Below are positions 22,458 to 47,733 of a DNA stretch of 50,208 nucleotides, piece after piece. Origin of the DNA: Gammaproteobacteria bacterium (GTDB taxonomy: Bacteria > Pseudomonadota > Gammaproteobacteria > Steroidobacterales > Woeseiaceae); the NCBI GenBank assembly GCA_009937525.1, contig JAACFE010000007.1, positions 1-50,208 of the forward strand, given 5' to 3'. The notes beneath the pieces were generated by a model. That model saw only the letters and a list, made by a program, of their open reading frames with translations. It was not told the DNA's origin and searched no databases. Made by a program: the position numbers and the translations under genes. Position 1 is the stretch's first letter. Every line of letters begins with the position of its first letter.

Positions 22458-22486
22458 TTGATATGCTGCGTTCTTTCGCATAGCTT
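22458..22486 (+). promoter_or_regulatory. Possible promoter of the ferredoxin gene
   Basis: TTGATA (22458-22463), a 17-bp spacer and TAGCTT (22481-22486) lie 42 bp before the ferredoxin start. The -35 box is good (5 of 6) and the -10 box is weak (3 of 6), so this is a tentative call. Confidence 0.35.
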
Positions 22487-27237: not shown

Positions 27238-28617
27238 CTAGTAGCCTTGCTGGCGCTGCGAATCGTCGTGCATGCGGGTGAGGAACGAACGGATCGCGGG
27301 CACTGCTTCCTGGCGAGTCATCAGCTTCTGCTGCTCCAGGATCTTCGCCATGTCCTCGATGGACCGCTTCCCGTCAATCAGCGACATGATGAATGAATAG
27401 ATCTGCGTCGTCATGGCCTGTGTGCGGAAAGACTGCGTCAGCGGCACCGCCTCCTTGCCCGTGACGAGCCAGTCCGGCAATGCCTTGTGTCGCGGCACCT
27501 GCAAGGCATCGCGTTCCTTGTAGGCGCAAAAGGAAAACACGCGCTCCTGCCTGCCGTGACGGCTGGCCGGCGAGCACATATACGGGATGGTCGCCTGCGA
27601 CACGTAGGGATCCGAGAAACCGGACTCCGCGATGATCGCCTTGGTTTCTTCCGGGCTGTAATGTCGTGCCCGGCCCGGATCCGCAAACGCCAGCGAGCCG
27701 AAGTTGACCCAGCGGCCGTTGTCTTTGAGCAGGCGATTGACGCGCGCCGCGAACACGGGCAGGTCTTCGGTGACGATGTCGATGAGCCAGGGCGTCACGA
27801 CGGTGTCGAACGAGCAGGCGGCAAACGGTGCGCGCAGTGCATCGCCGAGCACCAGGTGGAAGTCCTCTCCGGCGGGCTCCGGCGCCGACAGTTTACGCAG
27901 GACGGCGTCGTCTTCGAGCGACTTCGGTGCGATGGGAAACTCGTACAAGGACAGGCGATCGCCTTTCGCCATTCTGTCGGCCACGAGCATCAACATCGGG
28001 TTGAAGTCCATGGCGATGAGCCGTGAACAGTCGAGTTCCTTGTGAATGTCGTAGGCGAGGCGGCCCGCGCCCGCGCCGAGTACCAGCACATCGCCCAGCT
28101 CCGCGTGATCGTGGAGTACCGAACGAATCTGCTTGAGTGACGCCTCGTTCTCCTCCTCGCCCCATGCCCAGTCGCGGTGGATATTCGCATAATAGGTATT
28201 CAGGCCCTGGTCGGCTGGTGGCCGGGTCCTGAGTGCCAGGTAGGACTCGTAACTGCCGCTGTGCGACTGCACGTCGACGGGCCGCAGTAGTTTCTGCAGC
28301 GCACGGCGATGCTGCTCGACCGATTTTCTGTATCGTTCGACGCGCCGGCGGGTCAGCGCGCGAAGCTCCTTGTCCTTCAGCTCGACCTCGAGTCCTGCGA
28401 TCTCGTGGCCGAGCTGTTGCAACGCGAACTGCAGTCGGTTACGCCATTCGCCGAGGCTCGCATCCGGGTCCGCAAACATCCACGGAATGCCCTCGATGTC
28501 GGGGAATTCGATCTTGCAGGCGTCGCAGCCGAACCTGCCGGTGTCATCAAAGGATAGCGGCGTCTTGTCGCAGCGCGGACACGCAAGATAGCTCTGCAAT
28601 TGCTTCAGCTCACCCAT
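27238..28617 (-). CDS. Zinc-ribbon SAM-dependent methyltransferase (N2227/carnosine methyltransferase-like)
   Basis: A 459-residue cytoplasmic protein. The N-terminal Trm112-like zinc ribbon (Cys13, Cys16, Cys31, Cys34) leads to a charged helical stretch (70-115). A class I methyltransferase core follows, with the SAM motif LGAGAGRLAYD (180-190) and LVLGDALRAPF. FNPMLMLVADRM and GRWVNFGSL resemble the N2227 (carnosine N-methyltransferase) family. The last 60 residues (IDGKRSIEDMAKILEQQ) form a small winged-helix-like domain. Substrate unknown. Separated from the phospholipid cassette by 128 bp. Confidence 0.8.
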   Translation of the reverse strand: MGELKQLQSYLACPRCDKTPLSFDDTGRFGCDACKIEFPDIEGIPWMFADPDASLGEWRNRLQFALQQLGHEIAGLEVELKDKELRALTRRRVERYRKSVEQHRRALQKLLRPVDVQSHSGSYESYLALRTRPPADQGLNTYYANIHRDWAWGEEENEASLKQIRSVLHDHAELGDVLVLGAGAGRLAYDIHKELDCSRLIAMDFNPMLMLVADRMAKGDRLSLYEFPIAPKSLEDDAVLRKLSAPEPAGEDFHLVLGDALRAPFAACSFDTVVTPWLIDIVTEDLPVFAARVNRLLKDNGRWVNFGSLAFADPGRARHYSPEETKAIIAESGFSDPYVSQATIPYMCSPASRHGRQERVFSFCAYKERDALQVPRHKALPDWLVTGKEAVPLTQSFRTQAMTTQIYSFIMSLIDGKRSIEDMAKILEQQKLMTRQEAVPAIRSFLTRMHDDSQRQQGY

Positions 28618-29115: not shown

Positions 29116-30741
29116 CTATACGGGGTTGGCAATCGTTCCGTTTACGATCGGTGTGAACGCGGTGAGGCTGTCCTGCATCGCGGCATTGCCGAGGCCGTGG
29201 TTCGGGAACAGGCTGGCAAATTGCCCCTGTTCGCCATGCAGCGCCATGTAGTTGAGGATCACCGTGTTCACGAGCAGGTTGACGTTGTTCGCCGCGGGCG
29301 TCGCCGCGCGCTGCACGGCGCCGTCGGCGCTCATGTAGCCGATCTGCTGGTGCAGCGCCTGCTCCTCGGGCGTCGCGCCGAGCAACGTCGCTCGTCCGCC
29401 GGGGTTGTACACCAGGAAGAAGGAGCCGGCCGTCGACGAGTTGTCGCTCGTCCACTCGCCCTTGCCGCGGCCCTCGACCGTATTGTCGATCGCGCCGTTG
29501 GACGACAAGGAACCGTCGCTGAATACGTACAGCATGAGCGGGGTGCCGAGCCGAGCTGCATACTCGAGGCATGCGCCCATGCAGCGTCCGGCGCGGAAGT
29601 CCTTGACCTCGCCCTCGGCGCGGCGGCCGCCATGGTAGTCGTAACCGCCCATCTCGATCGTGCCGGCGCCGGCATAGCCGTTCATCACCAGCTTCATGAT
29701 CGCTGCCGTCTTCTGGAACTCGCGGGCATCCCGATCGCCGGCGTTGAACTCGGCGTCCGTGAAGATGCCGGTCGGGCCGACGATCTCCGGGTCGAGGCTG
29801 GGATCGACCGGAACGCCGGCAAAGCGATCGGCGATATCGGCCGATTTCAGGTAGCCGCATTCGACGAGCCGCTTCATGGCTGCGTCTTCCGTCGGCGCCA
29901 GCATCGTATCGACTGCCGGGTTGCCCAGCTTGGTCCCGGAGACGCGGAAGATGGACTCCATGACAGCCGTCGCATCCCGCGGACTGAGGATCGCGGCCAG
30001 GTCGCCGGTATCCACCAGGTTCACGACGTCCGAAGGACGGTCGACCTTCGTCGGGCGCAGTTCCGGATCGTAGAGCATCGCAGGCAGCATGGAATTGCCG
30101 CCCGAGTCCGTGTTCTCGGAACCGGCGAGCTGGAGGATCGAGCCGTTGGCCCCGGCACGGGCAATACCGTACATCGGATTGTGCGGGTTATTGCCGGTGT
30201 CGTTGTCCGAGCGGGCGGGGATGACGGCGCCGTTGATGTTTGCTTCCGTCCCCGGGGTCAGGCTCGCCAGGATGCCGCGACGGAACGCGGAATCGAGGTG
30301 AAAGCCGAGGCCCAGGTCGAAGTTCGCATAGTCCTGCTGCGTGACGGGATCCACGAGCCCGGGGATCATATCGCCCGGCAGACCCTGCCGTTCGTAGCCG
30401 CCCGTGCCGAGGAAGTCCCGCTGGCCGGCTTCCTGGCCGATCAATACGTTGGAACCGGCGATATTTGCGCCGCCAGCGAGATCGAAGCAGATGAAAGGGA
30501 TCTTGCCTGCACCCGCTGTTGCGATGCCGCAGCTCGCCAGCTGGCTGTCCAGGTCTCCGGACAGCGCGGCCCTGGCCAGGCGCGGGTTGGCCGCTACTGC
30601 ACTCAGGATTCCGCCGCCGACCGCATAAGCGGCACCGGTTCTGAAGCCCTGTGCGACAAACTGACGTCGCGTGACAGGACGTGGATGATCTCCATGCATC
30701 AGAGGAGCATCAAAGTCTCTTGCATTGCGTTTCTTAGCCAT
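29116..30741 (-). CDS. Tat-exported DUF1501-like protein
   Basis: A 541-residue protein. Twin arginines (Arg25-Arg26 in VTRRQFVAQG) followed by a weakly hydrophobic Ala/Gly stretch mark a Tat signal, so it is exported folded. The core resembles DUF1501, which is related to the alkaline-phosphatase/sulfatase fold: PFICFDLAGGANIAGSNVLIG, NPMYGIARAG, GGYDYHGG, YVFSDGSLSSNGA. Family members are commonly encoded beside cytochrome-like c genes. It is the last gene of the minus-strand operon (30-bp gap from the LamG gene), before the strong terminator. Function unknown. Confidence 0.82.
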   Translation of the reverse strand: MAKKRNARDFDAPLMHGDHPRPVTRRQFVAQGFRTGAAYAVGGGILSAVAANPRLARAALSGDLDSQLASCGIATAGAGKIPFICFDLAGGANIAGSNVLIGQEAGQRDFLGTGGYERQGLPGDMIPGLVDPVTQQDYANFDLGLGFHLDSAFRRGILASLTPGTEANINGAVIPARSDNDTGNNPHNPMYGIARAGANGSILQLAGSENTDSGGNSMLPAMLYDPELRPTKVDRPSDVVNLVDTGDLAAILSPRDATAVMESIFRVSGTKLGNPAVDTMLAPTEDAAMKRLVECGYLKSADIADRFAGVPVDPSLDPEIVGPTGIFTDAEFNAGDRDAREFQKTAAIMKLVMNGYAGAGTIEMGGYDYHGGRRAEGEVKDFRAGRCMGACLEYAARLGTPLMLYVFSDGSLSSNGAIDNTVEGRGKGEWTSDNSSTAGSFFLVYNPGGRATLLGATPEEQALHQQIGYMSADGAVQRAATPAANNVNLLVNTVILNYMALHGEQGQFASLFPNHGLGNAAMQDSLTAFTPIVNGTIANPV

Positions 30742-30771
30742 TGCTGTGTTCCTTGTCAGTCCTGTCTGTAC

Positions 30772-33285
30772 TTACTGAACCAGTGTTACTGCGTTACCGA
30801 GCATCGCTGCGCAGACGCCCTTGCCGATGGAGCGCGTATCGCTGCCTCCGGCGATGAGTCGGTCAACGAGGTTGTCGGGACGGTTGCCCGCAGCCTGGAA
30901 TGAGGCGAGTTCCTCGTAGACGTTCGCGCGTAGCGGCTGCGTGCCGATGTTCGTGCCCATGATGCGGTCGATCAGCGGATTCACGAAGCTATCGCGGTTG
31001 GTGCTGAACTCGCTGCCGTTGTTCCAGTTGAAGCCCGGGAACAGCGTGGCGAGATTCGCCCCCGGACTGCCTGGACTGCCGATCATCGCGTCGCAATACT
31101 GGATCGCGAGCTGCGCGATCGCGACCTGGTGCGACGACAGGAAGGTATTGAGGCTCTCCACCGCGGGCAGCGATTGCCTCAGTTCCTGGTAGGTAATGTC
31201 GACCGCGGGCGTCGTCGGATCGACCAGCGTCACCTCGGAATAGGTCGCGTTGATCTCGTCGAAGGTACGCAGGCCGATATGCGAGGACGGCGGGAGATCC
31301 GCCTCGGTAATCACCAGCGTCGGGTCAGCCGGCCGGCTGAAGCTGTTGCTGGCCAGTACGTCGAAGGTCAGGAAGAACTCGTCGTCCTCCGGTCCTTTCT
31401 CGAGCGGCAGCACTGCGCCCAGCGTCGACAGCGGCTGGCCGAGTTCGCCGAACTGTGAGGCACTCAGTGTCTCGACCAGCGTTGCATAGGTCTGGCCGAC
31501 CGGCGCTTCCATGCCGTTCATCGCGATGCGCACGCCCTCAATCGGAATGCCTTCCGGCGCCGAACCGTCGAGCGTTATGAAATGCGGCCGGTCGAACAGG
31601 TACGCATAGGTGTCGTACTGCGCCGCCTCGAACAGAATGTACGAGGATTGCGGCGCCGCTGCGATGTTCTCGGAGATGTCGAACAGCAGGAAGAAGCGTT
31701 CGCCAACACCGGCATCGAAGTTCTGTGTAACCTGCTCCTGCGTCATCGCGCGGCGATGGACTGCCGCGAGGCGAATCGTACCCTGCCACAGACCGCCGCC
31801 CGATGCTTCGTTGCCGAGCACCAGCGCGAACTCGCGCTGCCAGTCGATCAGCGTACCGCCCGGAACCAGGTCGGTCTGCGAGACCAGGCTGCCGTTGACG
31901 TAGATGCGGCGGCCGTTAATCGGGTCGTAGGTCGCAACCACGTGCTGCAATGTCGCCTGCAGGACCTCGTCCGCCGACGGCGTGGACAGTGCCGGATCGC
32001 CGTTGAGGCTGGTCTCGGTCGTGCGCAGCTGGAAGTTGTAGTCGTACAGCGTCTGCTGCAGCGTGAAGTTGCGCTGCGTCGTACCCGCCGAGTAGCTGAC
32101 GATACGCGCCTCTTCCTGCGTAACGTTCGCGGGAACCACCCATGCCTCGATCGAGAATTCGCCGGACTCCTGGATGATGTCGAAGAGTTTCGCCGATGCG
32201 GTCGTCGAGGCCTGCGCCTTGCCGTCCGTGATCGTGATACCCCAGCCGCCGAACCAGGTGACGCCACCGGAGAAATTGAGATCGATCGCCGGATCCACAC
32301 CACTGGTATCGTAGGCGATGGTTCCGCTGCCGGTCTTGAACTCCCACAGCGCGATCTGGGCATCCTCGTAACGGTTACCGCCGGAGGCCAGCGTCCCGTC
32401 GACGAGGCGCAGAGCTTTACTCGTGACGAGGTTCGGGTCGACCATCGTCAGCGTAATGCCGCCCGCGAATGTGGTTATCGCATCTTCCATGACCTGGGCA
32501 TCGGCGGCGCAATTGCCGGACCAGCAGTTGTGGAACTCGCTGCGCAGGCGAATGACCATGCGCGAGTTGGCCGGCGTGTCGAGATTTATCTTCGGTTTCG
32601 CGGCGTCGTAAGCGGCGACGACGTCCGGGTCCGCGAAGTACGGCTGTTGGGCGGTGGCCGATTCCGAGCTGTGGCAGCCGTTGCAGTTGGCGACCAGCAC
32701 GGGGTAGACCGTTGCCTCGAACGCCGCCGTGTCGGCCGGGAAATTCAGGCTGGCGCCCGGATCAGTCGACGGCGGTGGCGTCAGAATGATCTGGCGGCCG
32801 CCGCCACCGCTGCCGCCAACCCAGTTCTCGATCCAGGTTGTCATGATAGCGGCGCAGCTCGACGGATCTGCATTCCAGCAGTTGTGGCCACCGCCGACCT
32901 TTTCGACGAGGCGCGACAGTGCCGGCTGCGCGGTGTCTACGACGGGCAGCGCCTCGTCGTAAGCGAGGTTGACGTCGTCGTTTCTGACGAACATGGGCGT
33001 TTGGCCCACGACCTCGTTGTGGCAGGAACCGCAACGATCGGACGTCTTCGCATTCGCCCAGAATTCCTGCTGGAATGCCAGTACGTTGGCGTCGCGGGCA
33101 ACCGGACCGGTATAAGGCGCGCTGCCCGGGGGCGGCGCCTGCGTGAGCGGATTCTCGGTCGTCGCCGCGCCGCCGCCGCATGCGGCAAGCACGGCGCTGG
33201 CGAATACGCTGACGGCGGCTGCCCTGAGTACGCGCGTGTTCACAGCCAGGGCCGAAAAGGTAGCAATCATGTCTGCTGTCTTCAT
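30772..33285 (-). CDS. Diheme c-type cytochrome lipoprotein with LamG domain
   Basis: An 837-residue predicted lipoprotein; the signal ends in a LAAC lipobox with Gly at +2, which suits the outer membrane. Two tandem cytochrome modules follow. Module 1 has CGSCH (85-89) and HNCW (134-137); module 2 has CNGCH (201-205) and HNCW (252-255). A LamG/concanavalin-like domain (about 312-522) with FSIEAWVVPANV and YVNGSL comes next. The remaining C-terminal 300 residues contain no further heme motif. Likely an exposed electron carrier that also binds a glycan or surface. GGAGACAGGAC precedes the ATG. Middle gene of a three-gene operon (12-bp and 30-bp gaps). Confidence 0.85.
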   Translation of the reverse strand: MKTADMIATFSALAVNTRVLRAAAVSVFASAVLAACGGGAATTENPLTQAPPPGSAPYTGPVARDANVLAFQQEFWANAKTSDRCGSCHNEVVGQTPMFVRNDDVNLAYDEALPVVDTAQPALSRLVEKVGGGHNCWNADPSSCAAIMTTWIENWVGGSGGGGRQIILTPPPSTDPGASLNFPADTAAFEATVYPVLVANCNGCHSSESATAQQPYFADPDVVAAYDAAKPKINLDTPANSRMVIRLRSEFHNCWSGNCAADAQVMEDAITTFAGGITLTMVDPNLVTSKALRLVDGTLASGGNRYEDAQIALWEFKTGSGTIAYDTSGVDPAIDLNFSGGVTWFGGWGITITDGKAQASTTASAKLFDIIQESGEFSIEAWVVPANVTQEEARIVSYSAGTTQRNFTLQQTLYDYNFQLRTTETSLNGDPALSTPSADEVLQATLQHVVATYDPINGRRIYVNGSLVSQTDLVPGGTLIDWQREFALVLGNEASGGGLWQGTIRLAAVHRRAMTQEQVTQNFDAGVGERFFLLFDISENIAAAPQSSYILFEAAQYDTYAYLFDRPHFITLDGSAPEGIPIEGVRIAMNGMEAPVGQTYATLVETLSASQFGELGQPLSTLGAVLPLEKGPEDDEFFLTFDVLASNSFSRPADPTLVITEADLPPSSHIGLRTFDEINATYSEVTLVDPTTPAVDITYQELRQSLPAVESLNTFLSSHQVAIAQLAIQYCDAMIGSPGSPGANLATLFPGFNWNNGSEFSTNRDSFVNPLIDRIMGTNIGTQPLRANVYEELASFQAAGNRPDNLVDRLIAGGSDTRSIGKGVCAAMLGNAVTLVQ

Positions 33286-33297
33286 TGTCCTGTCTCC

Positions 33298-34509
33298 CTA
33301 CTGGCCCATGCAGTGAACGGCCGTGTCGGCGAACACCTGCTTCAAGCTGTAACCCGTCGAGCGGAACGTGCTGGTAATCGTGTCGACAGCGGAGCGATCC
33401 GCCGCGTTCTCCGGTTCGCGGAGACAAACGGTGCGGAAGACCTTCCTGACCTGGCAGGACGCGAACGCCTGGCTATTGCCCAGCTCCTCACCCAGCGACT
33501 TCGCGCCGCTGCCGCTGCCCGGAAGAGAGTTGTCGAAGCCAAGGTAGGCGTTCTGGCCCGCGCGCCAGCGGTTCTCCCAGGAGTCGTCGACCGTCCTGAA
33601 TCCCTGCGGGAAGTTGAGGTCGTTGTTGAAATACTTCGGTTGCACATTGTCCGGCGTGTATTCCATCGCGCCGGATTCCTCGTTGTAGTTGTAGTACGCG
33701 TAGGCACCGGCGAGGGTATCCATACCCGAGTGGCAGCCGATGCAGTTGTTGAGGAACAGACGGCTGTCGCCGCCCGGGCTGCGGCTCACATCCTGGCGAA
33801 TCCAGTCGGGCGGCAGCTTGGTGTCGAGCATCTGCTCCATGTCGTAGCACATGTGATTCAGCAAGGTGAAGCGGAACATGGCGCGGTTGGTGCCGGCCAC
33901 GAAGAAAGCTTCAGCCGCGGCGCGCGACGTCATGACGCCCGCCGTCGCGGAAGACGGGATGCCGAGGATCGACGATTGCGCAACCGGCACGAAATCGTTG
34001 ACGTTGCTCAGGTCCACGTTGTTGGTTTCGAGTTGCTCGAAATGATTGTTGTTGTTCGCCGCGGGAGCTGCCGCGACGATGCCGGAGCGGCCGACATAAG
34101 TCAGATCGGCCGAAAGCAGCGTGCTGAAATCGACGTCGTCACGGACCATACCGATGACCGTCGCTATGTAGTCGTTCATCGGAACGAATACAGACTGGTC
34201 ACGATTGGTCCACGGAGCAGCAAAGTTTTTCAGTGTCACGTTATAGAAGTACATGTTGTCCATCGCCGTGTAGGCCGCAGCAACCGGATCGCCGCCGGCG
34301 ATCTGGTTTTGCATGGTCTGCAGCACGGCATCGGTCGGCGGGACGCCGGCAAGCCGATCGTGAATGCGTTTCGCCTGCTCGCGTGGCCCGGCATACGCAG
34401 TGGCCATGAATCCCGCGAGCAGGACTCCGATGAGCGCTATCTGCCAGGGGCCGAACACTCGTCCAAGGCCGCCGGCAAACTTGTCTTTCGTGTATGTCGT
34501 GTTTTTCAT
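33298..34509 (-). CDS. Exported monoheme cytochrome-like protein
   Basis: A 403-residue exported protein with a signal peptide ending in ATAYA-GP. One heme-binding motif, CIGCH (256-260), follows FLNNC. A further conserved-looking cysteine pair occurs in FASCQVRKVFRTVCLREP, which resembles the C-terminal part of planctomycete-type cytochrome domains. The ATG at 34509 is preferred, with GAGCAG upstream; a GTG at 34524 is an alternative. First gene of the minus-strand operon. Expected to work with the LamG diheme protein and the DUF1501 protein; substrate unknown. Confidence 0.75.
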   Translation of the reverse strand: MKNTTYTKDKFAGGLGRVFGPWQIALIGVLLAGFMATAYAGPREQAKRIHDRLAGVPPTDAVLQTMQNQIAGGDPVAAAYTAMDNMYFYNVTLKNFAAPWTNRDQSVFVPMNDYIATVIGMVRDDVDFSTLLSADLTYVGRSGIVAAAPAANNNNHFEQLETNNVDLSNVNDFVPVAQSSILGIPSSATAGVMTSRAAAEAFFVAGTNRAMFRFTLLNHMCYDMEQMLDTKLPPDWIRQDVSRSPGGDSRLFLNNCIGCHSGMDTLAGAYAYYNYNEESGAMEYTPDNVQPKYFNNDLNFPQGFRTVDDSWENRWRAGQNAYLGFDNSLPGSGSGAKSLGEELGNSQAFASCQVRKVFRTVCLREPENAADRSAVDTITSTFRSTGYSLKQVFADTAVHCMGQ

Positions 34510-35533
34510 AACGATTCTGCTCACGCATCAATTCGATTCAAAAACCTCGTCGTCTTCCGTCGCATGCGGCGGATGACTAACGAACGATGTACCGGAGAAT
34601 CAAGAACTTCGATCTGTTACGCGATTCGCGTTTCCCTGATCGTTGCTCTACGCAACTCCGCCGTCCCAAGACCTTCTGATTTGCGAAGCCGCTGCCCAAG
34701 CACTTCAACCTTCCCTGTCTGGTGCCGCCTTTTACAGGAACCCCGTTCTTATCGTGCCAGAGCGTGGCTTGCGGCGCCGTGAATGCATTCACACATCCCT
34801 TAAGCCTTGAGCCTGCAGCTCGAGCGCCGAAATCAATCGGTCTGTCCGTGTAAAAGCAATTGCTGTGCCAGTTTTGCCGTTTGCCCGAATTTCGTCCGGC
34901 AATCTTTTATTAAACAATGGCTTGGCGGTGCCAAGTAGGTGTATTCCGAGATACCACTATGTCAAACCGTTGTCGGCGCTTTCACACAACTTTTGGGAGC
35001 GGTGACTCTAAGGCACTGATTCGACTGGTCGCGCGCGCTGTCGCCGAAGGGAGACAGGCGACAGCGCCCAGGACGCGAGCGGGCGTCAATACCGGCTACG
35101 GCAAGCAGGTCAGGAATAGAACCCTGTTGCGTCGGCGACACGCTGGACAAGCGGACGAACGTAAAAAGCAAACGATCCGGACGTCAGTGAAATCTGCGGT
35201 GCGGGCGCCGGCTTCGTGGTCGAAACGGCGGCGGAAGCGGATCAGGAAATTGGCAAACAACGCATTTGACAATGCGTACTGTCGCTCATTTTCCACATTA
35301 CATCGGCTCCCGGGCCTCTTTTATACTCCGCCGGAAATTAGCCTGCGGTTCAGTATGTATGGAGCAACAACGGCCGCAGGCGCCGGCCAGAAATTACGCG
35401 GCTTGGGCTGCCGTGCGCTACGCAACGGGCATTCAGTGGTTTGTGATGGTGTTAACGGTAAGCGGCCGGATTCACAGTCAACATAACCCATTAATCGAAT
35501 GATGGGTGAATGCGCACATTCGAGGACGATGTA
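34510..35533. other. 1-kb gene-free divergent control region
   Basis: No convincing gene in about 1,020 bp between the divergent operons. Open frames are present (e.g. 34917-35486 plus), but their products are arginine-rich and unlike proteins. The base composition is visibly less GC-rich than the flanking genes. Possible elements: a TATACT -10-like box at 35322-35327 without a good -35, a TTGACA at about 35265 without a matching -10, and a short hairpin CTTGGC-GGT-GCCAAG at 34921-34935. Promoters of both operons and perhaps a long leader or small RNA must lie here. Confidence 0.55.
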
Positions 35534-38278
35534 ATGAACAGGAAATCGCGACAAATCAAGGATGCGAGCATGCAGCCGGCATTGAAGCTGGCGGCGTTGA
35601 TTTCCGTGGCAGCCGCGTTTGCGGCGTGTGACGGCGCCAACCAGGGCGTGCAGATCGGAACGGGGCAGAACCCGGATCCGGTCGTTATCGATTTTCCGAT
35701 CGCCTACGTCAAGCAGCCGATTCCGGTTGATGACAACGGCGAATTCGAGCAGCAGGATCTGCGTGAGCAGATCAGCTTCCAGGTCGGCGGCAACCTGTAT
35801 TTCCGCGATCGCGCGTCTCCCAGCGCACTTGAAGTAAACATCACCGAGCCGATTATCGCTGACCAGGGTGACGTCCGCGATGTCGAGATAGCCTACGACG
35901 GCAGCAAACTGCTGTTCGCCATGCGTGGGCCCGCGGACCCGAATCTCGCCCTCGACGACGAGGATCAGCCCACCTGGAATCTCTGGGAGTACACGTTCGA
36001 GACCTCCGAGTTACGCCGCGTAATTGCAACGGACCTGACCGCGGAGAACGGTCACGACATCATGCCGAAGTATCTGCCCGACGGTCGCATCGTGTTTGCT
36101 TCGACGCGTCAGACACGCTCGCAGGCGATATTGCTGGACGAAGGCAAGGGCGCGTTCCCGCATGTGGACGAGGATCGCAACGAATTCGCATTCAACCTGC
36201 ACATCATCAATTCGGACGGCACCGGGCTGGAGCAGGTCACCTTTAACCAGAGCCACGACCTCGACCCCGCCGTACTCGACGACGGTCGCGTGGTATTCGG
36301 CCGCTGGGACGGGGCTCGGCAGAATGACGGCGTCGACTTCTATGTCATGAACCCCGATGGTTCCAATCTCGAATTGCTGTACGGCAAGCAAAGCCACGAC
36401 ACCGGGCCTGATGGCGACACCATCCAGTTCACCCAGCCCAGGCAGCTCGAGGACGGCCGCGTCATGGCGCTGATCCGTCCGTTTACCGACTCGGAAGGCG
36501 GTGGAGAGCTGATCACGATCGACACGATCCAGTATCTCGAGAATACGCAGCCGACGGCCCCGAATATCGGCGTTCTCGCGGGCCCCGCCCAGGAAGACGC
36601 GACGATCAACGAGGTCCTGACGCAGGCCGGCCCGTCACCGGGCGGCCGATACGGTTCGGCTTACCCTATCCAGGACGGCACCGGGCGCCTGCTGGTCAGC
36701 TGGAGCCAGTGCCGGCTGATCGAGGTCACCGAGGATTTCGGTGATCCCCTGGTCGAGCCGCGCATCGTCCCGTGCACGGAAGAACGGCTCGCGGCCGTCG
36801 TCCAGATCGATCCGAACAATCCCGTTACGCCGGCCGTTGGCGAATTCCTGATCGCACCGCCGCTCTACGGCATTTGGATGTACGACCCGCGCGACAACAC
36901 GCAGTTGCCGGTAGTTCCCGGCGAAGAGGGGATCATGGTCAGCGAGGTGGTTGCCGCCGACCCGCGGGTAAGCCCGCCGACGATCCTCGACGGCAGCAAC
37001 GACTATCAGCTCGATCCGACACTGGCCGATAACGGCGAGGCGGTCCTGAACATCCGCAGTGTCTATGACTTCGATGGTGCGGCAGTGGCCGACATCAACG
37101 CGCTGGCCGACCCCGCACAGACGCTGGCGGCGGATCGTCCGGCGCGATTCCTGCGCGTCGTGAAGGCCGTTTCCCAGCCGGACGATGATTTGCTCGATAT
37201 CGACAACACGGCCTTCGGTGTCAGCCAGGCAAACGGCATGCGCGAGATCGTCGGCTATACGATGATCGAGCCCGACGGCTCGGTCATGGTCAAGGTGCCG
37301 GCGAACACGGCATTGCAGATCAGCGTCCTCGACGAGGACGGCAAGCGTATAACGCCGCGCCACCGCAACTGGATTGCGCTGGTCCCCGGACAGGAACTCG
37401 AGTGCAATGGCTGCCACGTGCAGAACAGCGGCCTGTCCCACGGGCGCCGCGAAGCATTCGACTCGGCCTGGGCCGGTGCACAAACGGCCGGCGTTGAGTT
37501 CCCGAATACCGACCCGAGATGGTTCGTCGGCGACATCGGCGAGACGATGGCGGAGGTTCGCGCACGCGTGACCTGCACGGACGACGGCTGCTCCTCGCTG
37601 GAGCCTTCGATGAACATCGTCTACCGCGATGTCTGGTCGGCGGACCCCGCGATCGCGGCGCAGAATCCCGATATCTACATGCTGTATACGGACCTTACGA
37701 CGCCGTTGCCGACCAGCATCGGTTGCGCACAGGCCTGGTCGCCGAATTGCCGGACGGTCATCAATTACGAGACCGTCATCCACCCGTTGTGGAGTCAGCC
37801 GCGCCTCGTCTTCGATGCCGTCGGTAATCCGGTCATCGATCCGGTCACCGGCTTGCAGGTGAACAACAACTGTCTCAACTGCCACACGCCGGTCGATGCC
37901 GCGGGAGTGGTGCGCGTGCCCGCCGGGCAGCTCGAGCTGCAGGACGGGCTGTCGCCTGACGAACCCGATCATTTCCACGCGTATCGCGAACTGCTGGTCA
38001 CTGATAATCTTCAGGAAGTGGTGAACGGCGCGCTCGTCGACGCTCAACAACAGGTAGGGGTCGACGTCGATGGCAATCCCATTTTTGATGTGATTCCGAT
38101 TGCGTCGCCCGCCACGATCGCTGGGGCAGCGGCGTCTGACGATTTCTTCGACCGGTTCGAAGACACGAACGATTTGCACTACAACATCTTGTCCATAGCG
38201 GAGAGACGCTTAATTGCGGAATGGTTAGATGTCGGAGCCCAGTACTACAACAATCCATTCGACGCCCCGGCCAACTAA
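35534..38278 (+). CDS. Diheme beta-propeller lipoprotein related to hydrazine synthase alpha subunit (HzsA-like)
   Basis: A 914-residue exported protein starting at the ATG with GAGGA upstream (ATG 35510 is an alternative). The lipobox AFAAC has Asp at +2, which may favour inner-membrane retention. The N-terminal half is a TolB/PD40-type propeller with repeated DGRIVF-like strands (about 174-315). The middle domain reads PANTALQISVLDEDG and PGQELECNGCH, heme motif CNGCH at 624-628. The C-terminal domain has CLNCH at 780-784. Propeller, middle heme domain and second heme domain is the order known for HzsA of anammox bacteria. True hydrazine synthase needs beta and gamma subunits, absent here, so the activity is unknown. 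First gene of the plus-strand operon. Confidence 0.8.
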   Translation: MNRKSRQIKDASMQPALKLAALISVAAAFAACDGANQGVQIGTGQNPDPVVIDFPIAYVKQPIPVDDNGEFEQQDLREQISFQVGGNLYFRDRASPSALEVNITEPIIADQGDVRDVEIAYDGSKLLFAMRGPADPNLALDDEDQPTWNLWEYTFETSELRRVIATDLTAENGHDIMPKYLPDGRIVFASTRQTRSQAILLDEGKGAFPHVDEDRNEFAFNLHIINSDGTGLEQVTFNQSHDLDPAVLDDGRVVFGRWDGARQNDGVDFYVMNPDGSNLELLYGKQSHDTGPDGDTIQFTQPRQLEDGRVMALIRPFTDSEGGGELITIDTIQYLENTQPTAPNIGVLAGPAQEDATINEVLTQAGPSPGGRYGSAYPIQDGTGRLLVSWSQCRLIEVTEDFGDPLVEPRIVPCTEERLAAVVQIDPNNPVTPAVGEFLIAPPLYGIWMYDPRDNTQLPVVPGEEGIMVSEVVAADPRVSPPTILDGSNDYQLDPTLADNGEAVLNIRSVYDFDGAAVADINALADPAQTLAADRPARFLRVVKAVSQPDDDLLDIDNTAFGVSQANGMREIVGYTMIEPDGSVMVKVPANTALQISVLDEDGKRITPRHRNWIALVPGQELECNGCHVQNSGLSHGRREAFDSAWAGAQTAGVEFPNTDPRWFVGDIGETMAEVRARVTCTDDGCSSLEPSMNIVYRDVWSADPAIAAQNPDIYMLYTDLTTPLPTSIGCAQAWSPNCRTVINYETVIHPLWSQPRLVFDAVGNPVIDPVTGLQVNNNCLNCHTPVDAAGVVRVPAGQLELQDGLSPDEPDHFHAYRELLVTDNLQEVVNGALVDAQQQVGVDVDGNPIFDVIPIASPATIAGAAASDDFFDRFEDTNDLHYNILSIAERRLIAEWLDVGAQYYNNPFDAPAN

Positions 38279-39023
38279 CTTATTCAGGGTCGCATGCCTG
38301 GCGTTGTTTGCGCTACTGGCCATAGCCCCCGGACAAGCCAAGGCCGCCAAGGAGCTTCGTAATGTGGCGGTCGCCGACCCGTATCTCGAAATGCATACGG
38401 GTCCCGGACGCGGCTACCCTATTTTTCACGTCGTCGATCGCGGCGAGTCGGTCCAGATCATCAAGCAGCGCACGGACTGGTTCCTGGTTCGCGATGCCGA
38501 TGGTGACGAAGGCTGGGTCGACCAGGACCAGATGGAACTCACGTTGAATCCCGATGGGTCGGAGGTCGACTTCGAACGTGCGGTACTGCAGGACCTGACG
38601 AATTCGAAGTGGGAAATCGGCGCGCTGGCGGGCGATTTCGGCGGTGCGAACATCGTCTCGCTGTACGGTGCGTACTCGCTCAACCCCCACGTCTCCCTGG
38701 AGGTATGGGGTTCACAGATTTTGGGTAATTTTTCGAATGGATGGACGGCAAGTGTTAACGTCGTTCACGAAACGTGGCCCGACTGGCGCATATCGCCGTT
38801 TTTCACCTTGGGCGCGGGCGTCATTCGCACGGAGCCGAAATCGACGATCATCCAGGGTGAAGACCGCAACGACCAGATCGGCCACGCCGGCGCCGGGTTT
38901 CGCGTCTATGTAACGCGGCGATTCCTGTTCCGGGCGGAATACAAGACGCATGTCGTATTCACGAGCCGTAACGACAACGAGGAAGTAGAGGAATGGAAAG
39001 TCGGTTTCGCGTACTTTTTCTGA
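38229..39023 (+). CDS. SH3-domain outer-membrane beta-barrel protein
   Basis: A 264-residue exported protein. The signal peptide (LFRVACLALFALLAIAPGQAKA) is followed by a bacterial SH3-like domain (about 45-100: YLEMHTGPGRGYPIFHVVDRGE, in part, WFLVRDADGDEGWV). From about 115 on comes an amphipathic beta-barrel segment ending KVGFAYFF, with the C-terminal Phe typical of BAM substrates. The start overlaps the HzsA-like gene by 50 bp, so translation is probably coupled. It resembles the family named outer membrane beta-barrel domain-containing protein. The SH3 part may contact peptidoglycan. Confidence 0.8.
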   Translation: MSEPSTTTIHSTPRPTNLFRVACLALFALLAIAPGQAKAAKELRNVAVADPYLEMHTGPGRGYPIFHVVDRGESVQIIKQRTDWFLVRDADGDEGWVDQDQMELTLNPDGSEVDFERAVLQDLTNSKWEIGALAGDFGGANIVSLYGAYSLNPHVSLEVWGSQILGNFSNGWTASVNVVHETWPDWRISPFFTLGAGVIRTEPKSTIIQGEDRNDQIGHAGAGFRVYVTRRFLFRAEYKTHVVFTSRNDNEEVEEWKVGFAYFF

Positions 39024-39670
39024 TCCTGATCGGTCAGTTTGCACTGTCAGGATGCGCGGCCACGAAGAACCTGTTCGGGTTCGGTCGCGATGAAGCGCCG
39101 CCGCCGACCGCGGAGCCGCCAGGACAGGTCATCGACCCGGAAGTCGAACGGCGCGAGATCAAGGAGCCGAAGATCGACAGGGAGAACTTCGAGATCGGCG
39201 CGTTCGCGGGGATCATGAGTATCGAGGATTTCGGGACCGACCTTTCCTACGGCGCGAGGTTCGCGTATCACCTGACAGAGGGCTTCTTCGTTGAGGGCAC
39301 GATCGGCCAATCGGAAGCCGGCCTTACCAGTTTCGAAGCGTTGAGCGGCGGTGCGCGCCTCTTCGAGGATCGCATGCTCACCTACTACAACCTGAATCTG
39401 GGCTACAACATCCTGCCCGGCGAGGGATTCATCGGTGAGAAGCGCGCCTACAACACCCAGTTCTACCTGATCGCCGGGCTGGGTTCGACCGAGTTCGCCG
39501 ACGACGACCGCTTTACGGTCAACTTCGGCGCGGGACTGCGCCTGCTGCTGAACGATGCCTGGACGCTACGCTTCGACTTCCGCGATCACCTTTACGACAT
39601 AGACATCCTCGGCGAGGAAAAGACCGTGCATAACCTCGAGGGCACGCTGGGTTTCACGTTTTTCTTCTGA
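38993..39670 (+). CDS. Lipoprotein with outer-membrane beta-barrel domain
   Basis: A 225-residue protein with a lipoprotein signal (ALSGC lipobox) and a proline-rich linker (APPPTAEPPGQ). The barrel domain (about 65-225) alternates hydrophobic strands (FEIGAFAGIMSIED, LTYYNLNLGYNIL) and ends TLGFTFFF. Same fold family as the previous gene without the SH3 domain, so probably paralogous. It overlaps that gene by 31 bp. Its role may be to form or brace an outer-membrane complex. Confidence 0.78.
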   Translation: MESRFRVLFLILIGQFALSGCAATKNLFGFGRDEAPPPTAEPPGQVIDPEVERREIKEPKIDRENFEIGAFAGIMSIEDFGTDLSYGARFAYHLTEGFFVEGTIGQSEAGLTSFEALSGGARLFEDRMLTYYNLNLGYNILPGEGFIGEKRAYNTQFYLIAGLGSTEFADDDRFTVNFGAGLRLLLNDAWTLRFDFRDHLYDIDILGEEKTVHNLEGTLGFTFFF

Positions 39671-39717
39671 GGCAGGAGTCACGGTCAGTGCATCGATCAA
39701 TGGATAGAGTAGGGAAT

Positions 39718-39957
39718 ATGAAGGCAGAACTCGCTAAACCCGGACGAATATTGCTTGCGTTACTCGCATGTTACGGACTTTCGGCCTGCAGCATTGAGCC
39801 GTGGGTGAAGCCTTACGAACGCGACCGGCTGGCGGATCCGATCATGGCGCTCGAAGGCGATCCCGTATCGACCGCATACATACAGCACGTCTACGAAGCT
39901 CGAGAAGGAGCACGGGGCGGCGAAGGCGCTGCCGGCGGCGGCTGCGGGTGTAACTAG
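39718..39957 (+). CDS. Small DUF4266-family lipoprotein with a Cys-rich tail
   Basis: A 79-residue predicted lipoprotein. The start at 39718 has GTAGGGA upstream; an in-frame codon at 39688 is less likely. The signal ends in LSAC. The mature form is only about 55 residues: a conserved block VKPYERDRLADPIM, then a Gly-rich tail GGGCGCN with two cysteines at the C-terminus. This matches my recollection of DUF4266, which is commonly found next to DUF3570. The tail could bind metal or be modified; no evidence decides which. Confidence 0.75.
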   Translation: MKAELAKPGRILLALLACYGLSACSIEPWVKPYERDRLADPIMALEGDPVSTAYIQHVYEAREGARGGEGAAGGGCGCN

Positions 39958-39969
39958 GAGCGCACACAG

Positions 39970-41106
39970 TTGAATCTCCGACGGCCCCTCATTTTTCTGG
40001 CAATCCTGCTCGCGCTCCCCGGCAGCGTGCTGGGCGGCGTATTGCCTGACGACCGCGGGGACGTGCTCTACCACCGTTACGAGGGCGGTGGCGTGACGAT
40101 CGACGGGCCGTCGGTACTCGTGCGCAAGAAAGCGGGCAAGAGTCTGTCATTCGTCGGCAATTACTACCTCGACATGGTGAGTTCCGCGTCGATCGACGTG
40201 ATCACGACGGCGAGTCCCTATACCGAGGAGCGTACGCAGTGGTCCTTGGGCATGGACTACCTGCGCGGCAATACCACGATGCGCATGAACTACGTCAGCA
40301 GCGTGGAATCCGATTTCGACGCCAGCACCTACGCATTCTCGGTCAGTGAAGACATGTTCGGCGACCTGACGACGCTGACGCTCAGCTACGCGTATGGTGA
40401 GGATATCGTCGGCAAATCCGACGATCCGACATTCAGGCGCGAGAACACGCGGCAGCACTACGGCGTTGGACTGACGCAAATCCTCACGCGCAACCTGATC
40501 GCGACGCTCAATTTCGAGACCGTCACCGATGAGGGCTTTCTCAATAATCCGTATCGATCGGTGCGCTATGCCGATCCTGGCAGCGCCCGTGGTTTCAGCT
40601 TCGAACCGGAACTCTATCCCGAGACTCGAACCTCGAACGCGCTCGGGCTTCGGGCCCGGTATTTTCTGCCGTACCGGGCGGCGGTGGAAGCCGAATACCG
40701 TTTCTACACGGATACCTGGGAGATCGAGGGGCACACTGCCTCTCTGACCTACGTGCATCCCTGGGGACCGTTCACCTTCGAGGGCAAGTTCCGCTATCAC
40801 GACCAAACCGGGGCGGCTTTCTTCAGGGACATCTTCGCGCGTTCCGAGGCGACGAATTTCCGCGGCCGCGACAAGGAACTCAGCCCGCTCACCAGTTACA
40901 CGTTTCGCGGCAAGGTGAGCTATGAATTCCTGGACCCCAACAGGGGGTGGGGGATATTCAAGCGTGGCTCGCTGAACTTCTCGCTGGATCACCTGTTCGT
41001 CGAGTATCACGAGTTCAGGGACTTAACGTCCGGGCCGCTCGGCGAGGAAGCGCTCTACGAGCTCAAGGCAAACGTCTACCAGATATTCGTGTCGTTCTGG
41101 TATTAG
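39970..41106 (+). CDS. DUF3570-family outer-membrane beta-barrel protein
   Basis: A 378-residue protein starting at TTG, with AGGAG about 9 bases upstream. The signal peptide ends ALPGSVLGG. The mature chain is a run of amphipathic beta strands (SLSFVGNYYLDMVSS, THTASLTYVHPW-like segments) and ends IFVSFWY, an aromatic C-terminus for outer-membrane insertion. Family DUF3570 is usually linked to DUF4266 and often to ApbE-type flavin transferase and thioredoxin-like genes; neither is seen here. Last gene of the plus-strand operon. Confidence 0.85.
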   Translation: MNLRRPLIFLAILLALPGSVLGGVLPDDRGDVLYHRYEGGGVTIDGPSVLVRKKAGKSLSFVGNYYLDMVSSASIDVITTASPYTEERTQWSLGMDYLRGNTTMRMNYVSSVESDFDASTYAFSVSEDMFGDLTTLTLSYAYGEDIVGKSDDPTFRRENTRQHYGVGLTQILTRNLIATLNFETVTDEGFLNNPYRSVRYADPGSARGFSFEPELYPETRTSNALGLRARYFLPYRAAVEAEYRFYTDTWEIEGHTASLTYVHPWGPFTFEGKFRYHDQTGAAFFRDIFARSEATNFRGRDKELSPLTSYTFRGKVSYEFLDPNRGWGIFKRGSLNFSLDHLFVEYHEFRDLTSGPLGEEALYELKANVYQIFVSFWY

Positions 41107-41262: not shown

Positions 41263-41826
41263 ATGTCGTTGACTTTCCTGATCATCGTTCTCGCGGCGCT
41301 CGGCGTCATCGTCGTGGTGCTCTACAACCGCCTCGTGCGCAGCCGCAACCGGGTCAGCACCGCGTGGAGCGACATCGACGTGCAACTGCAGCGGCGACAC
41401 GACCTGGTACCGCAGCTGGTGAAGGCCGTGAACGCCTACGCGAAGTACGAGAAGGCCACACTGGAGGCCGTGACCGAGCTGCGCGCCGAGGCGATGCGCG
41501 TCGTCGAGGTGAATGCGCGCGGCGAGGCGGAACAGGCGCTGAGCGAAGGCGTAATCCGCTTGCTGGCGCTCGCGGAGAGCTACCCCGACCTCAAGGCCAA
41601 CGAGAATTTCCTCAAACTGCAGTCCCAGCTCGTCGAGACCGAGAACTACCTGCAGTTCGCGCGCCGTTACTACAACGGGTCCGTACGCGACTACAACACG
41701 ATGACCGAGACGGTGCCGAGCAACCTGGTTGCAACGATGTTCCGTTTCGAGCCACGCGAGTTCTTCCAGAGGACGGCGGACGAGGCCGCGAACGTGCCGC
41801 TCGTCAAACTGGGTTCCGTCGAGTGA
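41263..41826 (+). CDS. lemA: LemA family protein
   Basis: A 187-residue inner-membrane protein. One N-terminal helix (FLIIVLAALGVIVVVLY) anchors a long helical cytoplasmic or periplasmic domain with the family blocks RRHDLVPQLVKAVNAYAKYE and ENYLQFARRYYNGSVRDYN. Function is still undefined. The stop overlaps the DUF2207 start as GTGA; that pairing recurs widely and implies a joint envelope role. Confidence 0.94.
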   Translation: MSLTFLIIVLAALGVIVVVLYNRLVRSRNRVSTAWSDIDVQLQRRHDLVPQLVKAVNAYAKYEKATLEAVTELRAEAMRVVEVNARGEAEQALSEGVIRLLALAESYPDLKANENFLKLQSQLVETENYLQFARRYYNGSVRDYNTMTETVPSNLVATMFRFEPREFFQRTADEAANVPLVKLGSVE

Positions 41827-43523
41827 GGAAACTCGCCTGTCTCGTCGCGCTGGCGTTGCCGCTGCTGGCGGGCGCGGACGAGCGCATCCTCGAGTTCCAT
41901 AGCGACATCACGGTGATGCGGGACGGCTGGATCGAGGTAACGGAAACGATCCGCGTGCGTGCAGAGGGCGACCGCATCCGCCGCGGAATCTATCGTGACT
42001 TTCCGACCGAGTATTTCGACAAGCTCGGCAACCGCTACCTGGTCGATTTTCAGCCTTTGGCCGTATTGCGCAACGACGCGCCCGAAAGTTTTCACTCGGT
42101 TGAAGACCGCAATGGCGTGCGCACCTACTTCGGGCGCAGCGACCGTTACATCGAACATGGCATACACACCTACCGCTTCCGCTACCGCGCATCCAGGATG
42201 CTCGGGTTCTTCGAGGACCACGACGAGCTGTACTGGAACGTCACGGGTTTCGACTGGGCATTTCCGATCGACCGGGGCAGCGCGACCGTGCGTCTGGACT
42301 TTTCGCCCCCCGCGGGCAAGATCTCGAGCGAGGGCTATACGGGGCCGTACGGCAGCACAGAGCAGAACTACAGGTCCCGTGTCGATGCCGACGGCGTCGT
42401 GCACTTCGAGGCCAGTGACCCGCTCGGGCCGCTCAACGGACTGACGATCGTCGTCATGTGGCCCAAGGGCTTCGTCGCCGAACCGACGGCCTTGGACCGC
42501 GCGACCTGGATCCTGAAAGACAACCTGAATCTCCTGATTGCGCTCGCGGGCTATGCCGGCCTGCTCGCCTATGCGATCCCGGTCTGGCGCCGCTACGGCA
42601 AGGACCCGGAAGAGGGTGTGCTCGTCACTCGCTACGAGCCGCCCCAGAGATATTCACCGGCTTCGCTGCGGTACATCAGGCAGATGTATTACGACAACAA
42701 GACCATGACGACCGCCATCCTCAGCCTCGCGGTGAAGGGCTACCTCAGGATAAACGACCTGGGCAGCAAGCATACCTTGTTCAAACTGGAGCCCGGCGAC
42801 GATGCACCGCCCCTCGCGACCGGCGAAGCGGAGCTCTACGAGGCGCTCTTCAAGGATGACAGGCGCGTTGTGCTGGAGCAGGACAATCATGCCCTGCTCG
42901 GCGATGCGCGAGGCGCGCACAGAGCTTCCCTGGTAAAGGATTACAAGAAACACTACTTCCGCCTCAACAGCATGCTGAACATCCCGTCGATACTCATCAC
43001 CCTCATCGCCGCGGGGCTCGCAATCGTCGTAGGGGAGCGCCTCTCGTTCGCCCTGATAATCGTCATCGTCGCTATGCTCGCGACAGCCGCGTTCTTCGGG
43101 GTGATCATGAGGCGCCCGACGCTGCGTGGCCGCAAGGTACTGGACGAGATGCTCGGTTTCAGGGATTACCTCGAGATCGCCGAGAAGGATGAGCTGAACC
43201 TCCGCAATCCCCCGGAAAAGACGCCCCAACTCTTCGAGGCTTACCTGCCGTTCGCGCTCGCGCTCGGGGTCGAGCAGCAATGGGCCGAGAAGTTTGCCAG
43301 CGTACTCGAGGCGATTCGCGAGCCGGACGGAGGTGGCTACCAGCCGTCCTGGTACAGCGGTTCCTGGGACAGCTCGCGGATCAGCTCGAATATCGGCTCC
43401 GTGTCCAGCGGACTGGGCTCCGCCATCAGCAGCTCGGTGACGCCCCCGGGGTCGTCCTCTGGCGGCGGTGGGGGCGGGTTCTCCGGCGGCGGCGGTGGGG
43501 GCGGCGGCGGTGGTGGCTGGTGA
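41823..43523 (+). CDS. DUF2207 membrane protein with poly-glycine tail
   Basis: A 566-residue protein starting at GTG 41823; the in-frame upstream reading lies within lemA and is rejected. A signal peptide (LACLVALALPLLAGA) is followed by an extracytoplasmic beta domain (EFHSDITVMRDGWIEVTETI in part), a helix near 234-255 and a helix pair at about 388-425. The C-terminus is low complexity: serine-rich, then nearly all glycine, ending in Trp. Typical DUF2207 partner of LemA. Function unknown. Confidence 0.9.
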   Translation: MRKLACLVALALPLLAGADERILEFHSDITVMRDGWIEVTETIRVRAEGDRIRRGIYRDFPTEYFDKLGNRYLVDFQPLAVLRNDAPESFHSVEDRNGVRTYFGRSDRYIEHGIHTYRFRYRASRMLGFFEDHDELYWNVTGFDWAFPIDRGSATVRLDFSPPAGKISSEGYTGPYGSTEQNYRSRVDADGVVHFEASDPLGPLNGLTIVVMWPKGFVAEPTALDRATWILKDNLNLLIALAGYAGLLAYAIPVWRRYGKDPEEGVLVTRYEPPQRYSPASLRYIRQMYYDNKTMTTAILSLAVKGYLRINDLGSKHTLFKLEPGDDAPPLATGEAELYEALFKDDRRVVLEQDNHALLGDARGAHRASLVKDYKKHYFRLNSMLNIPSILITLIAAGLAIVVGERLSFALIIVIVAMLATAAFFGVIMRRPTLRGRKVLDEMLGFRDYLEIAEKDELNLRNPPEKTPQLFEAYLPFALALGVEQQWAEKFASVLEAIREPDGGGYQPSWYSGSWDSSRISSNIGSVSSGLGSAISSSVTPPGSSSGGGGGGFSGGGGGGGGGGGW

Positions 43524-46976: not shown

Positions 46977-47723
46977 ATGACCACGATCGATCTGAATGCG
47001 GATCTCGGTGAAGGCGATGCTTACGACGCTGAACTTTTACAGGTGGTCTCGAGCTGCAACATCGCCTGCGGCGGTCACGCCGGAGATACGGCAAGTATCG
47101 CGGCGACGATGCGGGAGGCCATGGCCAATGGCGTGAGTGTCGGCGCGCATCCCTCGTATCCCGACCGCGAGGGCTTCGGTCGTCGCAGCCGTTTCATCGC
47201 CGGTGAACCGCTGCGCGAGGCACTGCGGACGCAGCTCGAGAGATTTGGCGAGGTAGCGGACGAACTCGGTGCGACGATCACGCACGTGAAACCGCACGGT
47301 GCGCTCTATACCGATGCGGTCGTCGATCCGAAACTGGCCGACGTCATCGCGAGCGCTGTTGCGGATTTGCCGGGCAAACCGCTGCTGGTTGGGCAGGCGG
47401 ACACGGAACTCGAGACCGCCGCGCGAGCGCATGGGCTAGGGTTTGTCGCGGAAGCTTTTGTCGACCGTGCGTATCAGCCGAACGGGCAACTCGTGCCGCG
47501 CTCTGAGCCGGGTGCGGTTCATGGCGACGTGTCGAGCATCCAGCATCAGGCCGTCAGACTTGCGCGGGACGGGGAAGTCACGGCCCGCGACGGCAGCACC
47601 GTATCCGTCCGCGCGGACACCCTGTGTATTCACGGCGATACGCCAGGCGCCGCCGCAGCGGCCAGGGCCGTGCGCGAGGCGCTCGAGAAAGAAGGCGTCG
47701 ATATTCGTGGGGTCGACGGGTGA
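46977..47723 (+). CDS. pxpA: 5-oxoprolinase subunit A (LamB/YcsF family)
   Basis: Part of the ATP-dependent PxpABC 5-oxoprolinase, which opens 5-oxoproline (pyroglutamate) to glutamate. It has 248 residues. Seen: IDLNADLGEGDAYD, NIACGGHAGD, GAHPSYPDREGFGR and VKPHGALY, all typical of the family. The ATG begins the base after the rsgA stop. The three pxp genes then follow in order A, B, C. Confidence 0.96.
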   Translation: MTTIDLNADLGEGDAYDAELLQVVSSCNIACGGHAGDTASIAATMREAMANGVSVGAHPSYPDREGFGRRSRFIAGEPLREALRTQLERFGEVADELGATITHVKPHGALYTDAVVDPKLADVIASAVADLPGKPLLVGQADTELETAARAHGLGFVAEAFVDRAYQPNGQLVPRSEPGAVHGDVSSIQHQAVRLARDGEVTARDGSTVSVRADTLCIHGDTPGAAAAARAVREALEKEGVDIRGVDG

Positions 47724-47733
47724 CGCGACAGCG

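Follow-up and report, generated by a model that had tools for sequence, protein, structure and literature searches.

A conserved divergent locus of Gammaproteobacteria joins an HzsA-related cytochrome and DUF3570/DUF4266 genes to a LamG-cytochrome module

We describe a locus of eight genes, A to H, carried by a 50,208-nucleotide stretch of DNA (the window; positions 1 to 50,208 of contig JAACFE010000007.1, assembly GCA_009937525.1) from a gammaproteobacterium of the family Woeseiaceae, whose genome is a 3.0 Mb draft of 167 contigs. The locus is conserved and consists of two modules, C-B-A and D-E-F-(T)-G-H, where T stands for a thioredoxin gene of relatives; these modules are separable yet found in nearly the same genomes. 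Judged by its sequence, the product of D is a remote relative of HzsA and not a hydrazine synthase, and D-E-F-G-H is a cytochrome-linked branch of the known flavinylation clusters of DUF3570, DUF4266, thioredoxin and ApbE genes. We estimate at about 0.5 the probability that the two modules act as one envelope redox system, an electron relay; their co-function is suggested by co-occurrence and co-inheritance, and we infer the electron path and the membrane placement.

Conservation of the locus

Relatives of the locus were gathered through D. A D-profile scan of named genomes gave at least 563 relatives, 80 of which were kept, and the whole set comprised 129 loci (20 + 80 + 20 + 9), 122 of them distinct by D sequence; the counts made on this set thus show what accompanies D. 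Gene order was near-uniform in the 80 kept relatives, where only L147, L150 and L161 differed beyond the cuts made by contig ends. Upstream sequence reached 7.5 kb or more in 68 loci, and genes A, B and C were all present in 66 of these (exceptions L045 and L112). Genes E, F, G and H were present in all 86 loci with at least 6.5 kb downstream, and the eight genes together in 52 of the 53 distinct loci with both flanks sufficient. In 81 loci the distances of B followed those of D across the divergent promoter with a correlation of 0.948, a value inflated by shared ancestry.

A draw of 276 genomes of the class tested the association both ways, B with D and D with B. Genomes with weak matches to D (six, 47 reduced to 41) or to B (five, 42 reduced to 37) were excluded, as were small DUF3570 fragments, and G195, whose match spans 247-827 of the model, was scored as full-length B. 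A strong D was found in 41 genomes and a full-length B in 34, all of which also held D. The two genes lay within 10 kb on one contig in 27 of these 34 genomes, and on different contigs or 48 kb apart (G239) in the other seven. When shorter forms of B were included, B and D were together in 36 genomes, B was alone in one (G144) and D was alone in five. A draw across the phylum gave any match in 18 of 397 genomes, and the 11 genomes with matches at E <1e-100 were all of the same class. Matches to D, partly incomplete, occurred in 46 of 60 relatives; the nearest named relative among the matches listed was an uncultured Woeseiaceae metagenome-assembled genome, at 95% identity. D homologs were also named from cultured Alteromonadaceae, e.g. 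Paraglaciecola and Alteromonas flava, and from Aliiglaciecola, and a search of plasmids for D returned only three remote Bacteroidota records.

The heme motifs were retained with few exceptions. One CXXCH was present in 101 of 101 C proteins (open reading frames >330 amino acids), two in 90 of 91 B proteins (>700 amino acids), and at least two in D of 116 of the 122 distinct loci; two of the six D exceptions are a gene starting near a contig end (L158) and a gene in pieces (L202). These results bear out the preliminary description of this DNA, made from the window's letters alone, which had read the region as one exported redox locus and had looked to the co-occurrence of its halves and to the conservation of its heme motifs. 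Because the gene set is conserved across genomes, a chance neighbourhood was rejected. The type-2 D frames of L045 and L251 have a third CXXCH.

Separation of the two modules and their variable genes

The eight genes had been taken for a single machine and a full set. They are indeed conserved together, but they form two separable modules rather than one fixed machine, and in relatives a gene for a TlpA/ResA-like thioredoxin separates F from G, often with ApbE nearby. Each module is also seen without the other alongside. In G322, G144, G098 and G248 a C-B-A trio whose B is shorter and has a single heme stands apart from D, and G098 and G248 hold both modules far apart; a further trio in G322 has a B with two hemes, and in G091 C-B lies near a contig end. 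D-E-F-T-G-H without C-B-A, and with ApbE immediately before D, was found in L045, L190, L200, L201, L250 and L251. C-B-A trios distant from the D module, their B mostly one-heme, were noted in L256, L257, L258, L259 and L260.

The extra gene between F and G is usually present in loci outside Woeseiaceae. In L040, where it was tested, its product matches Redoxin/AhpC-TSA, with ResA and DsbE as the best NCBIfam models, both under their cut-offs, and the best thioredoxin match per locus carried CGPC in 40 of 58 loci. Of the complete loci, 20 had a thioredoxin match somewhere in the fetched stretch and 32 had none; ApbE lay in the stretch of 13 of the 20 and of none of the 32. Since these 32 loci are mainly from Woeseiaceae, the pattern may reflect a single loss event. 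The window itself had no match to ApbE or to a one-sequence thioredoxin profile, and only 17 bp separate its F and G. Elsewhere in the same genome we found three ApbE matches, and contig C112 (L164, 1-10000) holds a separate canonical locus in the order ApbE, DUF3570, DUF4266, thioredoxin. In a draw of 41 genomes of the genus, canonical DUF3570 was present in 18 and divergent DUF3570 in 37, two of these as fragments.

A coiled-coil-like protein of about 180 amino acids and a TPR protein of about 630 amino acids follow H (or ApbE) in L132, L149, L156 and L201, and may belong to the full system; two of the coiled-coil-like proteins were tested and had no Pfam match. A second thioredoxin lies downstream of H in L132 and L149.

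Gene D and its relation to hydrazine synthase

Gene D (35510-38278, plus strand; a start at 35534 is also possible) encodes a lipoprotein, as judged by eye, with CXXCH motifs at residues 632 and 788, a PD40 propeller repeat and an HZS_alpha middle domain. The HZS_alpha match (1.8e-15; 57.7 bits) lies well above the Pfam cut-off of 26.6, and the best PDB sequence match was HzsA (5c2v, 2.1e-16), followed by four designed propellers at 0.035-0.057. However, D scored only 49.7 bits against the NCBIfam equivalog hydrazine_alpha, for which the cut-off is 800. In HzsA, Tyr591, four residues past the CXXCH histidine, is the ligand of heme alpha-I (PMC12607021, PMC12758564); among the 116 D proteins that carry two or more motifs, none has a tyrosine at +4 from the first CXXCH histidine, counted by sequence position. 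His 890 of D is invariant and falls in a region of weak alignment with the C-terminal heme domain of HzsA; it might serve heme two as its second ligand.

D thus shares with HzsA and its homologs (PMC12758564) the HZS_alpha middle domain, two CXXCH hemes and a propeller-type N-terminal region, and differs from HzsA in the residue at the Tyr591 position, in its equivalog score and in its partner genes. No match to the beta or gamma proteins of hydrazine synthase was found among the eight proteins in general profile scans, no search aimed at beta/gamma having been made. Hydrazine synthesis by D is disfavoured by the equivalog score and by the residue at the tyrosine position. HzsA homologs are reported from Planctomycetota and Desulfobacterota in PMC12758564, the main text of which never mentions Gammaproteobacteria or Pseudomonadota. 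A D that is an HzsA relative with no part in hydrazine synthesis agrees with the proposal of PMC10732223 that hydrazine-synthase-like proteins form a wider family acting on other substrates. We would caution that HzsA-like annotations in Gammaproteobacteria should not be taken as a sign of anammox.

Genes E to H and the DUF3570 flavinylation clusters

Genes E (38229-39023, start uncertain), F (38993-39670), G (39688-39957, start uncertain) and H (39970-41106) follow D on the plus strand. E combines an SH3 domain (SH3_3, 3.1e-10) with a small domain resembling an outer-membrane barrel. F is a lipoprotein, as judged by eye, with an outer-membrane barrel domain (OMP_b-brl, 3.5e-9; TIGR04565, 3.1e-48). 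G is a DUF4266 lipoprotein by eye (5.2e-23) ending in GGGCGCN, and this CGCN terminus, which contains a CXC, was found in 104 of 104 homologs. H is a DUF3570 protein (6.1e-32; 111.4 bits against a cut-off of 25) of a divergent branch, the C-terminal residue of which was aromatic in 102 of 103 cases. The three barrels announced by the preliminary description were upheld to different degrees: F passed the curated TIGR04565 cut-off of 60 with 163.8, but E reached only 33.4, and for H the case consists of its family and its aromatic last residue.

That description knew of no system with this set of genes; the DUF3570/DUF4266 part had however already been described, in flavinylation clusters where genes of these two families stand with thioredoxin-like genes and ApbE (PMC8238504). 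In the same study a DUF3570 protein of Chlorobium was flavinylated at two [S/T]GA[S/T] sites. The window's H has SSAS and TTAS at the predicted sites and so lacks both intact motifs, and SSAS was the commonest first site among relatives (81 of 102, in a set of 120 loci that includes duplicates). Within family f137 of the phylum draw, L244, L245 and L246 keep TGAS or SGAS (SGAS with ApbE nearby in L245 and L246), and L198 and L249 have SSAS. Of 50 canonical DUF3570 loci, 20 were fetched, and 19 of these 20 had an [S/T]GA[S/T] of some kind and 19 had ApbE. In the class draw, canonical DUF3570 lay within 12 kb of D in 0 of 50 cases and divergent DUF3570 in 37 of 50, which shows that the two DUF3570 branches are distinct.

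The locus thus resembles the clusters of PMC8238504, which are of the DsbD-type or orphan kind, in the DUF3570 protein H, in the DUF4266 protein G with its C-terminal CXC, and in the thioredoxin-like and ApbE genes of relatives; it differs from them by the addition of D, E, F and C-B-A, by the absence of thioredoxin and ApbE from the window, by the divergent H, in which the first site is usually SSAS or TSAS, and by a thioredoxin of the Redoxin/AhpC-TSA kind rather than the PF13899 named in that paper.

The C-B-A module

On the minus strand, gene C (33298-34524) encodes an exported monoheme protein with CXXCH at residue 261; its start is either GTG at 34524 or an ATG further downstream. The C-terminal part of C has a weak match to PSD2 (DUF1585), at E<=0.1 in all 11 aligned members (best 5.8e-5); the window protein scored 23.2 bits, under the Pfam cut-off of 25.8. 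Gene B (30772-33285) encodes a lipoprotein, as judged by eye, with CXXCH at residues 85 and 201 and a LamG/ConA-like domain at residues 371-519 (Laminin_G_3, 7.6e-21), a LamG match being present in all 11 aligned members. Gene A (29116-30741) encodes a Tat-type exported protein of 541 amino acids, the structure model of which matches the alkaline-phosphatase superfamily fold.

A had been called a DUF1501 protein, an assignment that sequence profiles did not reach and with which only the fold superfamily agrees. The window protein had no Pfam match at E<=1, DUF1501 (PF07394) included, DUF1501 was not matched at E<=0.1 in any of the 10 aligned members, window protein included, a PDB sequence search gave nothing significant, and two profile-profile comparisons with DUF1501 gave probabilities of 3-6%; A as DUF1501 by sequence was accordingly rejected. 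DUF1501 was not found in the own genome either, and the related HXXSHH family (PF07586) turned up in no more than 2 of 114 genomes, which did not suffice to build a profile. Among the organisms named for A homologs are Cellvibrio, Microbulbifer and Gilvimarinus, which are polymer degraders. In public records some A homologs are annotated "general secretion pathway protein GspF", apparently a wrong name for a protein with a Tat export signal and the alkaline-phosphatase fold.

Gene spacing, export signals and the divergent control region

All eight open reading frames described earlier are present at their positions. Gaps of 30 bp (A-B), 12 bp (B-C), 17 bp (F-G) and 12 bp (G-H) and overlaps of 50 bp (D/E) and 31 bp (E/F) separate or join the genes of each run, and 985 bp lie between C and D. 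The count of five CXXCH motifs in three proteins was confirmed (one in C, two each in B and D). Export signals on all eight products were read by eye from the translations: lipoboxes in B, D, F and G, a twin-arginine motif in A and Sec-like N-termini in C, E and H.

The control region proposed to be shared by the two runs gained support from the alignment of ten intergenic regions of the same genus, which keep common non-coding blocks between C and D (34525-35509). These include a 14-bp palindrome (GTGAATGCATTCAC, 34779-34792), which has the form GTGAA-N4-(T/C)TCAC in 9 of the 10 regions, a block at 34853-34870 (AAAGCAATTGCTGTGCCA), a stem-loop-like CTGTC...GACAG element at 35038-35057 (CTGTCGCCGAAGGGAGACAG), a block at 35278-35327 (ACTGTCG...TTTTCCACATTACATCGG...CTTTTATACT) that is promoter-like by eye only, and a block at 35438-35459 (GGTTTGTGATGGTGTTAACGGT). 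A sigma-70 scan reported no promoter in the control region, and an Rfam search found only a tRNA.

Discussion

In the working that we propose, D-E-F-(T)-G-H would descend from flavinylation clusters that gained the HzsA-related diheme lipoprotein D and the small barrels E and F, and C-B-A would contribute the monoheme protein, the diheme LamG lipoprotein and the Tat-exported alkaline-phosphatase-fold protein. Reducing equivalents from periplasmic thiols or cytochromes would reach H in the outer membrane by way of the thioredoxin and of the CXC lipoprotein G. In species that have ApbE and keep an SGAS-type site intact, H would carry covalent flavin. The electrons would next travel over the hemes of D, then over those of C and B, and arrive at a ligand bound by A and by the LamG domain of B; they may also travel in the reverse direction. 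In the lineage of the window, where the locus has lost thioredoxin and ApbE and retains only degenerate flavin sites, the relay would depend chiefly on hemes and CXC thiols. The locus would share with the Mtr/Omc porin-multiheme conduits the combination of heme lipoproteins and outer-membrane barrels, and differ from them in having one or two hemes per protein, small barrels and no multiheme wire. More tentatively, we suggest that the locus could encode an undescribed outer-envelope machine that many Gammaproteobacteria share. The HzsA-related cytochrome would have been added to a DUF3570 flavin/thiol relay and joined to the LamG-cytochrome/alkaline-phosphatase-fold module, and sediment Woeseiaceae, which lost thioredoxin and ApbE, would run the machine on hemes, having naturally exchanged flavin for heme.

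Several observations weigh against one redox system of this kind. Among the 102 distinct H proteins, only 14 had one intact site (11 the first, and three, those of L044, L161 and L195, the second), 87 had neither and one was unread. ApbE lay beside an SSAS-type H in 19 loci, and this persistence speaks against a simple tie of ApbE to an intact site. A strong D occurred without a strong B in 5 of the 276 genomes and B without D in 1, and C-B-A is missing beside D in the type-2 loci and also in L112 despite at least 7.5 kb of upstream sequence. The B protein of L194 has no CXXCH, and the full-length D frames of L136, L145, L161 and L196 have a single one. Lastly, in the window's D an aspartate directly follows the lipobox cysteine, a position at which relatives vary; by the rule known from E. 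coli, an aspartate there retains a lipoprotein in the inner membrane.

In a plainer explanation, an ApbE encoded elsewhere would act in trans and attach flavin to H, and the cytochromes would be electron partners of the usual kind. The family matches of H and G, the three ApbE matches elsewhere in the own genome, the ApbE genes beside relatives (SSAS types included) and the 14 proteins with one site agree with it; the SSAS and TTAS of the window, the separate canonical copy in the same genome and the distance of canonical DUF3570 from D do not, and we judge it rather unlikely. We give similarly limited weight to a kinship of C-B-A with the planctomycete PSCyt/PSD and DUF1501-type pairs, by which the trio would help to oxidize and turn over carbohydrates or organic ligands of another kind, D-H serving as electron sink or source. 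PSCyt genes occur with Laminin_G_3 and with two neighbour-gene families of unknown role (PMC5615132), a combination of heme protein, LamG and such neighbours that C-B-A resembles. The PSD2 similarity of C and the LamG domain of B in every aligned member, the fold of A and the polymer-degrading sources of its homologs fit this kinship; against it, the window's C is under the PSD2 cut-off and A misses Pfam DUF1501. C-B-A also differs from the PSCyt/PSD cytochromes in consisting of separate proteins, where those have a fused architecture, and in its coupling to a D-H module.

Two further explanations are less probable still. A module for outer-membrane biogenesis or stress, whose hemes and thiols would only sense the redox state, would account for the small barrels, the SH3 domain, the lipoproteins and the genes for coiled-coil and TPR proteins that some relatives have downstream. 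A 953-amino-acid TPR lipoprotein of L156 matches YbgF and BamD models under their cut-offs. Five heme sites in three proteins are many for a sensor, and we find this explanation improbable. Least probable of all is that D is a hydrazine-synthase-like enzyme for N-N or other nitrogen chemistry: its HZS_alpha domain and its top PDB match point that way, against which stand the equivalog score, the missing tyrosine and the lack of a beta or gamma match among the eight proteins in the general profile scans.

Our search, which left subscription papers and preprints outside, found no publication describing the locus, and no physiological function in print was found for any part of it; in the text available from the Woeseiales literature checked, PMC12175321 included, neither hydrazine nor DUF occurs. 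For sediment Woeseiaceae, mtrA, mtrB and mtrC are reported (PMC12175321), and other surface electron routes may therefore exist there beside the redox system that we favour. Woeseiaceae make up 1-22% of the 16S sequences retrieved from marine sediments (PMC7082342). The locus joins in one testable system three groups that were each orphans (DUF3570/DUF4266, the relatives of HzsA outside anammox, and LamG cytochromes with PSD2-like partners), and its natural series (ApbE with SGAS, ApbE with SSAS, neither) allows one to ask whether flavin and heme replace each other.

Neighbouring genes

Clustering of the flanking open reading frames was noisy, shadow frames of known genes forming clusters as well, and was used only for two neighbours. 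LemA and DUF2207 genes lie directly downstream of the locus (window 41263-43523), and the LemA-like cluster was found in 42 of 56 Woeseiaceae-type loci against 2 of 61 others. A methyltransferase gene adjoins A (27238-28617), its cluster being present in 38 of 56 Woeseiaceae-type loci against 13 of 61 others. Further away, the window holds a two-gene 2-oxoacid:ferredoxin oxidoreductase with POR and TPP domains (19528-22481), and LamB/YcsF and carboxyltransferase A/B domain genes (46977-49334) that presumably represent a set resembling that of 5-oxoprolinase.

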